From: a virus
Virus record (IMG/VR): IMGVR_UViG_3300017729_001080
Location: 1-64,000 of that record
Reading direction: 5' to 3' (one strand)
DNA: 64,000 nucleotides
In this document: positions 2,425 to 13,467 of the stretch, piece by piece
How positions within the stretch are numbered: position 1 is the first letter of the stretch
Layout: every line of letters begins with the position of its first letter
Notes under the pieces: model-generated
The model's input: only the letters and a program-made list of their open reading frames with translations
The model's database searches: none
What the model was told of the DNA's origin: nothing
Translations under genes and position numbers: made by a program

Positions 2425-2868
2425 CTATGAGATTTCAATACTACGAGGCTTCTTACCTTCTGGAACGATACGTTCTAAAGATATTTTCAGTAACCCGTCT
2501 TTCAACTCGGCACCTTTCACTTCAACATCATCTGCAATAGTGAATGCTTTAGAGAACATTCTTTTAGAGATACCTCTGTGAAGAACACCGTCTTTATCAT
2601 CATCTGATTTTTCTTTCTTAACAGATTTAACTGTCAAAATGTTATCAGCATAGTCAACTGTAATATCATCTTTTGAGAATCCAGCTAATGCTAGTTCTAC
2701 ATCATAAGTGAAATCTCCAGTCTTTACGATATTGTAAGGTGGGAAGTTTACTTGGGTTTGAAATGTTGCAACATCGCCATCGAACATACGTTCAAAATGG
2801 TCAAACATGTTGTCAAAGCCTACAGTTACAGGTCGTAACTGGTTAAAAATAGATAGTCCGTTTGTCAT
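2425..2868 (-). CDS. hsp20: Small heat shock protein, Hsp20/IbpA family
   Basis: This 147-residue protein has an alpha-crystallin domain (residues ~38-130) flanked by a short N-terminal arm and a C-terminal tail. Typical segments are NIVKTGDFTYDVELALAGFSKDDI, the L-x-V strand LTVKSVKK, GISKRMFSKAFTIADDVEVKGAELKDGLLKISL, and the late RSIEIS. Hsp20 proteins hold unfolding proteins in soluble complexes; IbpA-like proteins are common in T4-like marine phages, where a virion-assembly role is suspected. An optimal sigma70-type promoter lies upstream, so early expression is likely. It joins ClpS, ClpX and ClpP as quality-control functions in this window. Confidence 0.93.
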   Translation of the reverse strand: MTNGLSIFNQLRPVTVGFDNMFDHFERMFDGDVATFQTQVNFPPYNIVKTGDFTYDVELALAGFSKDDITVDYADNILTVKSVKKEKSDDDKDGVLHRGISKRMFSKAFTIADDVEVKGAELKDGLLKISLERIVPEGKKPRSIEIS

Positions 2869-2960
2869 TGTTAACTCCTTTGTTAAGCAAGTTGATTAAA
2901 GTGTAGACCCTATCAAGCAATCTACACAGTTATTTATGCACACTATTGTACATATATACT

Positions 2961-2989
2961 AATATAATGATTATTTATGGAAATGTCAA
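2961..2989 (-). promoter_or_regulatory. Sigma70-type promoter for hsp20
   Basis: Minus strand TTGACA, 17-bp spacer, TATATT, about 95 bases before the hsp20 ATG. The -35 overlaps the stop-proximal end of the upstream small gene. Confidence 0.75.
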
Positions 2990-3240
2990 GTCTTTTTCTC
3001 AAGTTTTTCTGAAAAAAGTTCAATTCCCTTAGATGGTCCCGCATCCCGCGGCAATCCACCATATTTTCCAATATAATCTTCAAGTACTGCTTTATACCAA
3101 AGTTGGCTATTGTGGTGTGCTTTTTTGTTATATTTTGAGATACCAACACTTGTTCCATCCTGAGTAAGCAATGCTCTTGTGCTTTCTTGTTGCAATTCTC
3201 TTAGTGTTAATTTTTCTAAATCTATATTCAATTTATTCAT
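2986..3240 (-). CDS. Small hypothetical protein
   Basis: 84 residues, hydrophilic, with no recognised domain. The segment YIGKYGGLPRDAGPSKG near residue 55 is glycine-rich and may be functionally constrained. AAAGG abuts the ATG; the same SD lies 8 bases before a TTG three codons in, so the true start may be that TTG. The hsp20 promoter overlaps its 3' end. A 71-codon frame in another phase over the same region was judged a shadow. Confidence 0.55.
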   Translation of the reverse strand: MNKLNIDLEKLTLRELQQESTRALLTQDGTSVGISKYNKKAHHNSQLWYKAVLEDYIGKYGGLPRDAGPSKGIELFSEKLEKKT

Positions 3241-3256
3241 CCTTTGTTCATATTTT

Positions 3257-3264
3257 GATAAATA
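3257..3264 (+). promoter_or_regulatory. Late-type promoter, plus strand
   Basis: GATAAATA followed by A, 37 bases before the plus-strand gene at 3301. It is one of the few copies of this motif in plus orientation, and it sits before one of the few plus-strand genes. Confidence 0.6.
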
Positions 3265-3300
3265 ACATTATAATCAAACACATTTAGGAGGCCACCTATT

Positions 3301-3618
3301 ATGATTAAAGAAACCAAAGTATTTTACCCACATATTGTAAAACAGTATGATGATAATGCACAACTGATTTCTGAGAATAATTATGATACATATTATTCAC
3401 TAATGAGAACAATTCTTTCCGATAACGGAATTGACTTGACTGATAATACTAAGTATAAAGAAGATTTGACTACTGATAAGTTCGAAGGCAAAATTACTAT
3501 TGTTTATCCAAACAATGAAACTATGACTGCTATCGAAACTGCTATCGGTTCTCAAATGTCTTCTTTTAGCGACAGTCAACCAATCTTTGAAGAATTCTCT
3601 GATAATCATTTGTTCTAA
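3301..3618 (+). CDS. Hypothetical protein on plus strand
   Basis: 105 residues, acidic, no recognised domain. It is supported as a real gene by a strong AGGAGG Shine-Dalgarno sequence 9 bases before the ATG, a late-type promoter upstream, and an intrinsic terminator immediately downstream. It converges on the clpX-infC-rpsU operon. Late transcription suggests a virion or late function, but nothing in the sequence identifies it. Confidence 0.7.
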   Translation: MIKETKVFYPHIVKQYDDNAQLISENNYDTYYSLMRTILSDNGIDLTDNTKYKEDLTTDKFEGKITIVYPNNETMTAIETAIGSQMSSFSDSQPIFEEFSDNHLF

Positions 3619-3638
3619 TACAAAATAATCATGAAATG

Positions 3639-3667
3639 AAAAGGTCGCTTTATGCGGCCTTTTTTTA
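3639..3667. terminator. Bidirectional intrinsic terminator
   Basis: A 10-bp stem (AAAAGGTCGC pairing with GCGGCCTTTT, one G-U pair), loop TTTAT, and T7 on the plus side with TTTTC on the minus side. It sits between the convergent plus-strand gene and rpsU and can serve both. Confidence 0.85.
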
Positions 3668-3946
3668 TTCCAATTCTTGTGTTCTTTGTTTTCTATACCA
3701 ACGCTTCTTTCCGGCATCCCGTGCTTTACGTTTAACCTCACTTGGTTTCACATAAGCAGTACGGTCACGAACCTCTTGTATAATGCCTGCATCTTGTACT
3801 TTCTTTTTGAACTTACGTAATGCTCTTTCAAATTGTCCGTTTCTTACTTCTACTGTTAGACCCGACTTATTAGTTTGTGAAAAGTCGTTTCTATCGTTTG
3901 ATTTATATTGTCTATTCTTATTATAACTATTATTGTAACTAGTCAT
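3665..3946 (-). CDS. rpsU: Ribosomal protein bS21
   Basis: This 93-residue protein has a polar N-terminal extension of about 27 residues and then the bS21 core. The core reads VEVRNGQFERALRKFKKKV with a basic C-terminal half (VKRKARDAGKKRWYRKQR). bS21 sits on the 30S platform near the anti-Shine-Dalgarno end of 16S rRNA and helps mRNA initiation. Phage-encoded bS21 is known in aquatic phages and can replace the host copy in ribosomes. The start overlaps the infC stop (8 bases), placing it last in a clpX-infC-rpsU operon. Confidence 0.92.
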   Translation of the reverse strand: MTSYNNSYNKNRQYKSNDRNDFSQTNKSGLTVEVRNGQFERALRKFKKKVQDAGIIQEVRDRTAYVKPSEVKRKARDAGKKRWYRKQRTQELE

Positions 3947-4484
3947 TTTTTATTATTACACCTATTATCCTATTCCCGTTTGTTTTTAGAGGGAGGTCGT
4001 ATTTGAAACTACTCAAATACTCAGAGATTTGGGAATTAAAGAACTCTAACACATCACTTGCCTTAGAATTTTCCCTGCCCCTCATTTGTACTGTCACTTT
4101 TACTTTATTGCCTTTATCAATAAACTTTTGAACTTGGTTAAGTTTCATCTTTAGGTCGTTCTCACCTATAGCTGGTCTAAACTTAACTTCTTTAACTTCA
4201 ACTGAATTTTGTCTGGCTAGTTTTGCCTTCTCTTTTTCACGTTTTTTGATTTCGTAATTGTACTTATTTATACTAATGATTTTTGCAACTGGCGGCTTTG
4301 CATCTGGAACAATTAGAATCAAATCTAATCCTTCTGAATCCGCTTTTTGCTGTGCTTCTTGTTTTGATAAGACACCAAGTTGTTCACCGGTGTCTGTGAC
4401 TACACGTAATTCATCTGCACGAATACGTTGATTGGCTACAACGAATGGCTTTCGCCCTCGTTCTTCCTTAAAGTTTTTCTTCAT
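3939..4484 (-). CDS. infC: Translation initiation factor IF-3
   Basis: 181 residues, the full cellular length. The N-terminal domain contains NQRIRADELRVV and GVLSKQEAQQKADSEGLDL. It ends in the linker with DAKPPVAKIISINKYNYEIKK, followed by a C-terminal domain containing VKEVKFRPAIGENDLKMKL and VTVQMRGRE. IF-3 keeps 30S subunits free and proofreads the initiator codon. A full-length phage copy next to bS21 points to control of host translation initiation. Its start overlaps the end of clpX by 17 bases, so the three genes are translationally coupled. Confidence 0.93.
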   Translation of the reverse strand: MKKNFKEERGRKPFVVANQRIRADELRVVTDTGEQLGVLSKQEAQQKADSEGLDLILIVPDAKPPVAKIISINKYNYEIKKREKEKAKLARQNSVEVKEVKFRPAIGENDLKMKLNQVQKFIDKGNKVKVTVQMRGRENSKASDVLEFFNSQISEYLSSFKYDLPLKTNGNRIIGVIIKND

Positions 4485-9088: not shown

Positions 9089-10051
9089 TTAGTGCAAACC
9101 GTTAGGAACGATTATATAGTGAATAGATAAAACTACACCAACACTTGCACCTAAGCCAATCATCATCTTTATGAAGTCTTTAGTTACAAGAGGGAAAACA
9201 GTTTTAAACTTTTCTTTACCTGTAATAGTTGCCATAGCAAGTTCACGGCCACAAAGTAATCCTACGAATACCCAAGTTGTTGACATTGGTATATCATTCA
9301 GTTCCTTGAAGAACCAAAGAATTAGAAAATATACACAATCAATTATTGTAGCACTTCTTACATAACGTGTATTATGTTTTTCAATTACGATGTTTTGTAT
9401 TTTACCACCACCAGTATAAAATATATAACCTAAGCCAAATACAAATACTGCACTTACCATTACCATTAAATCAAATGGGATTTGTCTTGGTAAGAATACG
9501 GCAATGTTTGCCATATCATGTGATAACCAAGTGAACCATAAAAAGCCAGTTGTTATCCACTGACCTACTCGCCAATACATTTTATGATTTTCAGCGACTG
9601 GTTTTGCTTCGTCAAGTATTTTAGTAACACCAATCCAGATTACATATGCCGCCACAGCCGCAACTGCATAACCCATCATTGATTTGACTAGCATCTTCTC
9701 TAATATAAATGTACTAGCAAATGCACTTAACACTAAGAAACTTGTACTTACTGGTACACCTATTCTTGTTAATATCAATAGTAAGCCTGGTGCGGCGGCA
9801 TGATACCATTGAATCTCTTGAAATGGAATTTTGTTTAATCGTCCGTAACTAATATCTCCACCATTAGTTGTCCAACCATACCACAAAGTATAAAGCAGTA
9901 CCGCACTTGCGGCTCCCCACATTATCTTCCAATTAAATTTTTCGTTATTTGATGCAATCCAAGTACCAAGAGTTTGTACTGAATCGTTTGCTATTACTGA
10001 ATATGCGGCAAATAGAAAACCTATTGCCATCCATAGGGTGAGTGCATCCAT
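9089..10051 (-). CDS. PiT-family inorganic phosphate (anion) permease
   Basis: 320 residues and about 9-10 hydrophobic helices, with the internal duplication typical of PiT transporters. The first half has VIANDSVQTLGT (19-30) and GVPVSTSFLVLSA (98-110). The second has SHDMANIAV (177-185) and DIPMSTTWVFVGLLCG (253-268). These correspond to the repeated GANDVANA and G-x-P-x-S-T-T signatures that form the phosphate path. PiT proteins move phosphate with H+ or Na+; related family members carry sulfate, so the anion is not proven. The start has AGAAGGAGA at good spacing. It lies downstream of the structured RNA. Phosphate import would suit DNA synthesis in oligotrophic water. Confidence 0.78.
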   Translation of the reverse strand: MDALTLWMAIGFLFAAYSVIANDSVQTLGTWIASNNEKFNWKIMWGAASAVLLYTLWYGWTTNGGDISYGRLNKIPFQEIQWYHAAAPGLLLILTRIGVPVSTSFLVLSAFASTFILEKMLVKSMMGYAVAAVAAYVIWIGVTKILDEAKPVAENHKMYWRVGQWITTGFLWFTWLSHDMANIAVFLPRQIPFDLMVMVSAVFVFGLGYIFYTGGGKIQNIVIEKHNTRYVRSATIIDCVYFLILWFFKELNDIPMSTTWVFVGLLCGRELAMATITGKEKFKTVFPLVTKDFIKMMIGLGASVGVVLSIHYIIVPNGLH

Positions 10052-10220
10052 TTTTTATCTCCTTCTGCTTAACGTCTTTACCACGTTGCTCACATAATTA
10101 GACCAGGCTCGATTGATGCCTGGTTGTAACCTTATTGTTACTTTCATATTTATGAATGTAACACAAAAAAGATATTAAATCAATACACTTTTTAATTGAG
10201 TTGTTGATAAGTTGGGGAAA

Positions 10221-10285
10221 TAAAAAAGAGACAGTCAGCAATATAAAATGAAAGTGAGTAAAATATGGTTTGCCAACCGTCTCTT
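10221..10285 (-). terminator. Long hairpin terminator of the structured RNA
   Basis: A 14-bp stem (AAGAGACGGTTGGC pairing with GCTGACTGTCTCTT, three G-U pairs) with a 32-base loop, followed by T6 on the minus strand. Confidence 0.7.
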
Positions 10286-10536
10286 AATTTTTGATTACTT
10301 GGTATTGTAATCAGAAAATATAAGCAAAGTAGGAGGGACTTGGTTACACCCCCAACCCCTCGACACAGATACCATTCTGAATCCAGGGAACCTAGTTCCG
10401 TTCGGTAGAACGATGTGACTCTTAGCCTCTCAGCTTTGAACCTGGGTACCACCCCTAACTAGTCAAGTTCGACCGTCTGGTAACAGCCTCTTCCTTGCAC
10501 TACAATCATTGAGTCGCTAAACTCTCTGATGCTTAT
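10222..10536 (-). ncRNA. Uncharacterised structured RNA, about 315 nt
   Basis: This stretch has its own consensus promoter upstream and an intrinsic terminator downstream. It contains a series of strong local hairpins: GAGT..ACTC, GTC..GAC, CGTTC-TACC-GAACG, GGAAC-TAG-GTTCC and GGTT..AACC. CCAGG (10441-10445) can pair with CCTGG (10383-10387) to enclose a multiloop, and GCAAGG near 10498 can pair with CTTTGC near 10325 to close the core. The G/C-rich core stands out from the AT-rich surroundings. It lacks the conserved sequences of RNase P RNA, SRP RNA, 6S RNA and tmRNA. A long 5' leader acting on the PiT permease gene is an alternative if the terminator is read through. An 86-codon frame across it is probably spurious. 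Confidence 0.7.
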
Positions 10537-10542
10537 GTTATT

Positions 10543-10571
10543 AATATAGCATAATGATTCGGTATTGTCAA
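10543..10571 (-). promoter_or_regulatory. Sigma70-type promoter of the structured RNA
   Basis: TTGACA, 17-bp spacer, TATATT on the minus strand. No protein start follows for about 490 bases, which argues that it makes the RNA. Confidence 0.8.
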
Positions 10572-12785: not shown

Positions 12786-13116
12786 AATCGTCTAACAACT
12801 TTGTCTTATCTCCTGTATATCCCATTGCAGGGTTTAGTGAGTCTGCATCTGGAAGAGGGTCTTCTCTCTCTGTAATGACAGGCCATTGCTGTGACCATTT
12901 CTCATTTATATCATACAACCGTTGCGTGAACAATGGCGATGTATCTGGAATGATTGCATCTGCTGGACACTCTGGTTCGCACACACCACAATCAATGCAT
13001 TCGTCTGGGTTAATTACTAACATATCTTCGCCAACGTAAAAACAATCTACTGGGCAAACTTCAACACAATCAGTATATTTACATTTAATACAATTCTCGT
13101 TTACTACGTATGCCAT
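12778..13116 (-). CDS. fdxA: FdxA-type 7Fe ferredoxin
   Basis: 112 residues. Two cluster-binding motifs are complete: Cys9, Cys12, Cys17, Cys21 with Cys25, and [11 protein letters not shown] supplying Cys40, Cys43, Cys46, Cys50. The C-terminal ~55 residues ([18 protein letters not shown] then PDADSL) are the extension typical of proteobacterial FdxA carrying [3Fe-4S] and [4Fe-4S] clusters. It carries low-potential electrons; the partner is unknown. A 2OG oxygenase two genes downstream would not need it directly. The gene follows the tmRNA with a gap of only about 35 bases. Confidence 0.93.
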
Positions 13117-13194
13117 ATATTTTCTTTATTAACCCCAAATTAAAATATGACTTTTCTGTTGCCAGGTAAGCCATCAACCCCTACGTGCTTAAAA

Positions 13195-13236
13195 CTAAGC
13201 CGCTAATGCCATTTCTGGCTCATAATTTGCGTTTGC
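13195..13236 (-). other. tmRNA proteolysis-tag reading frame
   Basis: From resume codon GCA the frame encodes ANANYEPEMALAA and then TAG. Adding the tRNA-borne Ala gives a 14-residue tag. The C-terminal ALAA is the determinant recognised by ClpX; the first part (A-N) resembles the SspB/ClpA-side end of bacterial tags. GCA is preceded by TATAATT. Confidence 0.92.
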
Positions 13237-13316
13237 AATTATAGTTTTTGACCAATAACGCAGTCATCCGGTAAACTCCACTTCACTTTCGCACCTGTCG
13301 ATCCTAGTTCAGCCCC

Positions 13317-13369
13317 ATCATAATTACTCTATGCCGTAAATTTGTAGTTTTTACGCTACAAAGTAATTA
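13317..13369 (-). other. tmRNA intervening segment
   Basis: A 53-base spacer between the encoded CCA end and the 5' end of the coding piece, with an 8-bp terminal stem (ATAATTAC/GTAATTAT) and an internal GTAG..CTAC pairing. By analogy with permuted tmRNAs it is removed in maturation. Confidence 0.8.
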
Positions 13370-13436
13370 TGGTGGAGCTGTGGGGTACTGCCCCCCAGTC
13401 CAGAATACGTCTACGTTGCTTCAACGTCTACAATAT

Positions 13437-13467
13437 TATTTATACACGATAAACGTATATAAGTCAA
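13437..13467 (-). promoter_or_regulatory. Overlapping early and late promoters of the tmRNA
   Basis: TTGACT, 17 bp, TATAAA on the minus strand, and the -10 is embedded in an exact T4 late core TATAAATA (13437-13444). By T4 geometry late +1 falls near 13431, right at the acceptor piece. The RNA could be made both early and late. Confidence 0.7.

Follow-up and report, generated by a model that had tools for sequence, protein, structure and literature searches.

The manA RNA family was described by Weinberg et al. in 2010, when it was listed as cis-regulatory and as a possible riboswitch, with its copies placed in potential 5′ UTRs (PMC2864571). Rfam 14 brought a revised alignment (PMC7779021), and papers from 2023 (PMC9964418) and 2025 (PMC12197685) again give manA as cis-regulatory or a possible riboswitch, without a tested function. 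The family has been catalogued in this way since 2010 with no known function, and the 5′ UTR location is an interpretation attached to it, outside its definition by sequence and structure. Other phage-borne non-coding RNAs with elaborate folds, such as GOLLD, ROOL and the T4 stable RNAs, are also of unknown function.

Here we describe an RNA gene on the minus strand of a 64,000-nucleotide stretch of viral DNA (the window, part of a virus record, G000, of 64,485 bases), where an earlier note, naming no strand, had placed an uncharacterised structured RNA with its own promoter and terminator. As judged from sequence and structure, the gene is a divergent member of the known, functionally unexplained manA family, and in marine giant phages the anatomy of its subfamily points to an independent RNA instead of the catalogued gene-control leader. 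Should manA be an RNA gene in its own right, looking for its ligand has been the wrong question, and a widespread marine-phage RNA needs a trans partner; cultured carriers, namely Mosig (Pelagibacter) and P-SSM2 and P-HM1 (Prochlorococcus), make this reading directly testable.

Membership in the manA family

The Rfam search proposed in the earlier note returned manA (RF01745) at 10521-10323 on the minus strand, covering model positions 1-192 (full length) with 55.5 bits against a gathering cut-off of 55.2 (E 1.8e-11). The pass is narrow, and the RNA is thus a borderline member of a known family and neither uncharacterised nor new, a match to a known RNA family being one of the outcomes that the earlier note had named as refuting its proposal. 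Several relatives of the window copy score under the cut-off, which, as the subfamily shows, splits a real clade. When the Rfam model was run on 50 whole records, cyanophage-type copies scored 168-189 bits and window-like copies 44-76 bits. Helix order and nesting are those of the Rfam manA consensus, according to both the consensus alignment and our independently derived structure. A reciprocal covariance model (R1), built from 47 subfamily copies, matches the window at 10310-10543 (minus strand) with 240 bits, the window copy being in its training set, and recovers 8 of 20 cyanophage-type manA loci over their full length (E 1e-9 to 4e-17); therefore, the link to manA holds in both directions. 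Against named cyanophage records R1 gave no match under stricter filters and did give matches in smaller searches.

In common with cyanophage-type manA, the RNA has a GGUGGU hexaloop hairpin, an AGUG past the first hairpin, an ACC-bearing loop and a promoter directly upstream. Unlike that type, the subfamily adds an outer helix (P0) and a terminator immediately past the RNA, occurs mainly in jumbo-phage-like contigs and has no fixed downstream gene. The marine and cyanophage distribution known for manA is found here too (viral contigs, cyanophages and Pelagibacter phage Mosig), whereas a 5′ UTR location is not, given the RNA's own terminator, a late promoter past the terminator and opposite-strand neighbours within the window's clade.

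Other families fit less well. As the earlier note had it, RNase P, SRP, 6S and tmRNA are absent, with no Rfam match to any of them inside 10222-10571. The RNA resembles GOLLD, ROOL and the T4 stable RNAs in being non-coding, phage-borne and elaborately folded, but none of these gave an Rfam match here and the core is ~220 nt. The string UUAGGGGUGGUACC looks like the T-box consensus, AGGGUGGNACC; here, however, it forms a closed GGG-GUGGUA-CCC hairpin with no antiterminator bulge. With no T-box model match in Rfam up to E 5 and a differing structure, T-box identity was rejected; no tRNA-synthetase gene was seen downstream of the RNA. A mir-6 match at the terminator (E 0.013) lies far under the cut-off and was set aside as a long-stem artefact.

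Anatomy of the locus

All of the elements lie on the minus strand. A sigma70-type promoter, the TTGACA-N17-TATATT of the earlier note, occupies 10571-10543 with 11 of 12 consensus matches. With the start placed ~7 nt past the -10 hexamer and the end at the terminator U-tract, the predicted transcript would run from 10536 to ~10222, that is, ~315 nt. Because the window has 16 promoter-like sites of at least 11/12, such a site is not rare by itself and the claim rests on conservation. Specifically, using simple rules with random-place controls for promoters and terminators alike, a promoter of at least 10/12 at a fixed distance was found in 81 of 85 distinct subfamily copies, versus 2.2% of random stretches; of the cyanophage-type copies, 94 of 108 have a promoter.

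The conserved folded core extends over 10320-10536, the alignment columns having been mapped to the window by hand. It is closed by helix P0 (AUAAGCA, 10536-10530, with UGCUUAU, 10326-10320), the closing helix of the original description. Near the 5′ end stands hairpin P1 (10506-10529), with two-sided changes at 5 of 6 pairs, and a second closing helix, GUAG (10503-10500) with CUAC (10332-10329), corresponds to Rfam's bracketed helix; three of its four pairs covary and it is 99.5% paired. The P3/P3b arm with its UACCA loop (10464-10497) and the P8 arm with its UGGUA loop (10356-10388) each contribute two helices to the covariation set. The multiloop domain (10392-10462), whose outer helix covaries at all six pairs, contains the GUGGUA hexaloop hairpin (10455-10444), a middle arm (10442-10417) and a UACC-loop hairpin (10412-10399). 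Hairpin P9 (10333-10353) is 100% paired and covaries at three of five pairs. An accessory hairpin, UGAUUAC/GUAAUCA (10292-10313), is specific to the window's clade; in near relatives its stem is altered yet still paired.

The intrinsic terminator (10222-10285) consists of a long stem with arms at 10285-10272 and 10239-10226, a long loop and a U-tract at 10227-10222. In L056, L060, L070 and L073 the stem is altered but pairing is kept, and a loop segment, ACCATATTT..ACTCACTTTCAT, is constant in the window's clade despite these stem changes; only 7 contigs have the segment. A folding test detected a terminator directly past the RNA in 66 of 77 subfamily copies (control 7.8%). A stem test did so in 56 of 72 (random places, 5.6%), although this stem-pattern scan overlooks the terminator of the window itself, whose loop is too long for it. 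Four copies (L051, L052, L289 and L318) have neither promoter nor terminator, and some others are also without a terminator. For the cyanophage type, the folding test found terminators in 39 of 101 copies, versus 14.2% in the control.

In 47 of 74 subfamily copies (control 5.1%) the RNA is followed, as a rule at ~30 nt, by the T4-type late motif ATAAATA, which was found neither upstream of the RNA nor on the other strand (0 and 0). Further elements were seen beyond the RNA. In L335, a freshwater-2 RNA (RF02980, 75.4 bits; 3232-3314, plus strand) lies behind the manA copy, between the late promoter and an MGRPLNKR gene, and leaders like it can be seen in many loci of the subfamily. An element GACCTAAGATGCAACT...GGGCAGATGGTC with a T-run recurs past manA in many cyanophage contigs (L162, 505-620; L195; L235) and gave no Rfam match.

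Conservation of the fold

The stretch 10537-10212 (minus strand) folds at -97 kcal/mol (z = -3.46), a value as low being reached by none of 100 shuffles. GC content stands out as first noted (46.2% vs 34.6% window-wide, the 99th percentile among 234-nt stretches). RNAalifold, applied to an alignment of 47 relatives (A1), gave 53 pairs, 37 of them with two-sided changes. Adding the outer helix, the first hairpin and two proposed loop contacts yields a 74-pair structure in which 95.1% of cells are paired and 46 pairs have two-sided changes; no shuffle out of 500 reaches this result and slid versions are 33-46% paired, figures to be read with the structure having been derived from the same sequences it was tested on and with relatedness only partly controlled. 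However, pairs with two-sided changes far outnumber those in the slid versions, which preserve relatedness. The covariation that the earlier note had looked to homologues for is thus present and backs its view of a structured non-coding RNA with promoter, hairpins and terminator of its own.

Two candidate kissing-loop contacts, UACCA/UGGUA and GGUA/UACC, are paired in 91-95% of cells with zero two-sided changes; we put them forward as possible loop-loop contacts. A protein-coding explanation finds no conserved reading frame: none of the 47 sequences is open across the RNA in five frames and 2 of 47 are open in the sixth, in line with the initial impression that no protein gene fits.

Spread and copy number

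A 17-base pattern taken from the window occurs in 66 viral contigs, a wider pattern in 118 and a cyanophage-type pattern in at least 120, all these counts coming from related, partly redundant metagenomic contigs in which copies are not independent events. The nearest relative matches the window copy at 98.9% of core positions, the other relatives at 66-91%. The window copy belongs to a divergent subfamily that is for the most part unannotated and occurs chiefly in jumbo-phage-like marine contigs; the earlier note's suggestion of a phage RNA is supported. No RNA copy was found, at the sensitivity used, in seven named phages (six jumbo and one smaller) that had been picked for their related proteins. 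A scan of genome contigs for bacterial carriers matched three, which we suspect to be phage contigs.

The RNA is present once per record in the 39 matching records among the 50 scanned whole, and likewise in 37 annotated phage records (GenBank/RefSeq twins among them). A 4.8-kb contig (L222) carries two manA copies, at 98-325 and 3618-3846 on the plus strand, the sole such case among the loci examined.

Neighbouring genes and the permease

By mechanical ORF calls, the first ORFs downstream of the subfamily copies fall into 21 families, and in 10 copies the first ORF is on the opposite strand. Upstream, 66 of the 87 copies with enough sequence sit behind a major capsid gene (phrog_138), as do the manA copies of cyanophages P-HM1, P-RSM4 and S-SSM5. 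Phage MIJ3 (L355) has an HNH homing endonuclease (2723-4098, plus strand) at the site behind the major capsid gene that the majority of subfamily RNAs occupy in other jumbo-type phages; this site is perhaps an insertion hotspot. Among seven annotated cyanophages the contexts are regA/purL, after gp23 (three cases), after pstS, after ferredoxin, and that of P-TIM68, whose copy precedes an opposite-strand gene. Many cyanophage-type copies lie shortly ahead of a start codon (gp32-like and talC-like ORFs), six precede tRNAs, and the copy of Pelagibacter phage Mosig stops, leader-like, within ~25 nt of a rubrerythrin gene.

The suggestion that the RNA regulates a downstream phosphate permease was rejected. 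The gene concerned (9089-10051, minus strand) owes its label to a weak PDB match only (6l85, E 0.0033), a Pfam search of its protein giving no match. The RNA is found at 8 of the 75 related permease loci that have 500 bp or more of upstream sequence. In seven of these (L068-L071, L073, L074 and L139) the distance from RNA to permease is 1149-1897 nt and opposite-strand ORFs intervene; since coordinates are identical for L068/L069 and for L073/L074, the independent cases are fewer than the loci. The eighth, L072 from contig 3300024420_000003, is alone in having the window's 253-nt spacing, and over the permease this contig and the window are 100% identical. Relatives hold one or two opposite-strand ORFs at the position of window 10052-10221, where the window has none; one of these, a 274-aa ORF (MTQLISP...), is presumably AsnA-like. 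We infer a deletion between RNA and permease in the window's lineage.

Proposed mode of action and alternatives

Sequence shows the family membership, the fold, the layout of promoter and terminator and the lack of a fixed target gene; beyond this, we consider it probable that the locus works as an independent gene of a divergent manA RNA, which would be transcribed early by the host, terminated and act in trans. More specifically, host sigma70 RNA polymerase would probably transcribe the RNA from its own promoter, early timing being suggested by the sigma70-type promoter together with the separate late promoter. The transcript would fold into a closed multi-arm domain, possibly with loop-loop contacts, and the predicted termination would free it ahead of any neighbouring gene. 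That the RNA is autonomous, occurs in one copy and has no fixed neighbour points to action in trans, and the unit may best be seen as a portable, mostly single-copy cassette. As conservation is concentrated in structured elements, binding to a protein or ribonucleoprotein would be more likely than antisense pairing, and such a partner is our guess. A wider claim, towards which we lean only slightly, is that manA as a whole is no riboswitch class and would be a portable RNA gene carried by marine phages, acting in trans and expressed early from a promoter of its own, with a jumbo-phage subfamily barely reached by Rfam; the cyanophage-type copies are less clear and may be leaders, or processed.

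The catalogued view of manA as a metabolite-sensing fold that governs the downstream gene through termination or translation is unlikely for this RNA, even though a riboswitch aptamer would show a conserved, intricate fold too, which tells against a stand-alone gene. The original 5′ UTR assignment and the copies just ahead of start codons, that of Mosig included, speak for a leader. In the subfamily, however, no shared expression platform was seen, because the terminators, which show no sequence relationship from one copy to the next, are placed outside the closed fold. Inspection revealed no shared alternative pairing of the kind expected from a riboswitch, and the stems of the terminators vary freely. 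Moreover, the next gene often has a late promoter of its own, the 21 downstream families are unrelated to one another, neighbours in the window's clade and in P-TIM68 are on the opposite strand, and one copy per matching record makes no regulon.

Still less probable is a generic 5′ module that stabilises or antiterminates (in the manner of put) any transcript from its promoter. Its place directly behind a strong promoter in both subfamilies would suit this, as would the very different genes that follow, tRNAs among them, but in most subfamily copies the immediate terminator and the late promoter for the next gene would leave little downstream transcript to protect. We regard as very improbable an antisense RNA in which a conserved, unpaired stretch, such as the long terminator loop, pairs with mRNA of the phage or the host. 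The constancy of that loop within the window's clade would be expected of it; the loop is nevertheless confined to that clade, a search of four related records for its complement, allowing up to 3 mismatches, gave no second match, matches elsewhere in the window are at chance level, and the remaining conservation falls on paired or loop-structured positions. Antisense action of the terminator loop was thus rejected, and the stand-alone, trans-acting gene is the reading we retain.

The phage

The UvsX protein of the window is closest to those of jumbo phages Phosso and Atu_ph07. The neighbourhood of the RNA recurs in a 342,607-base contig, where the capsid gene is ~90 kb from the RNA; its capsid protein has 70-74% identity to those of subfamily contigs, which find their best matches in jumbo phages. 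The window is probably a fragment of a marine jumbo phage, and a pelagimyophage identity was dropped, as both UvsX and the subfamily capsid protein match jumbo phages best. A separate tmRNA gene lies at 13104-13463 on the minus strand, called by ARAGORN as permuted with tag ANANYEPEMALAA and matched by Rfam alpha_tmRNA and tmRNA_permuted; Mosig likewise has a tmRNA ~3 kb upstream of its manA copy.
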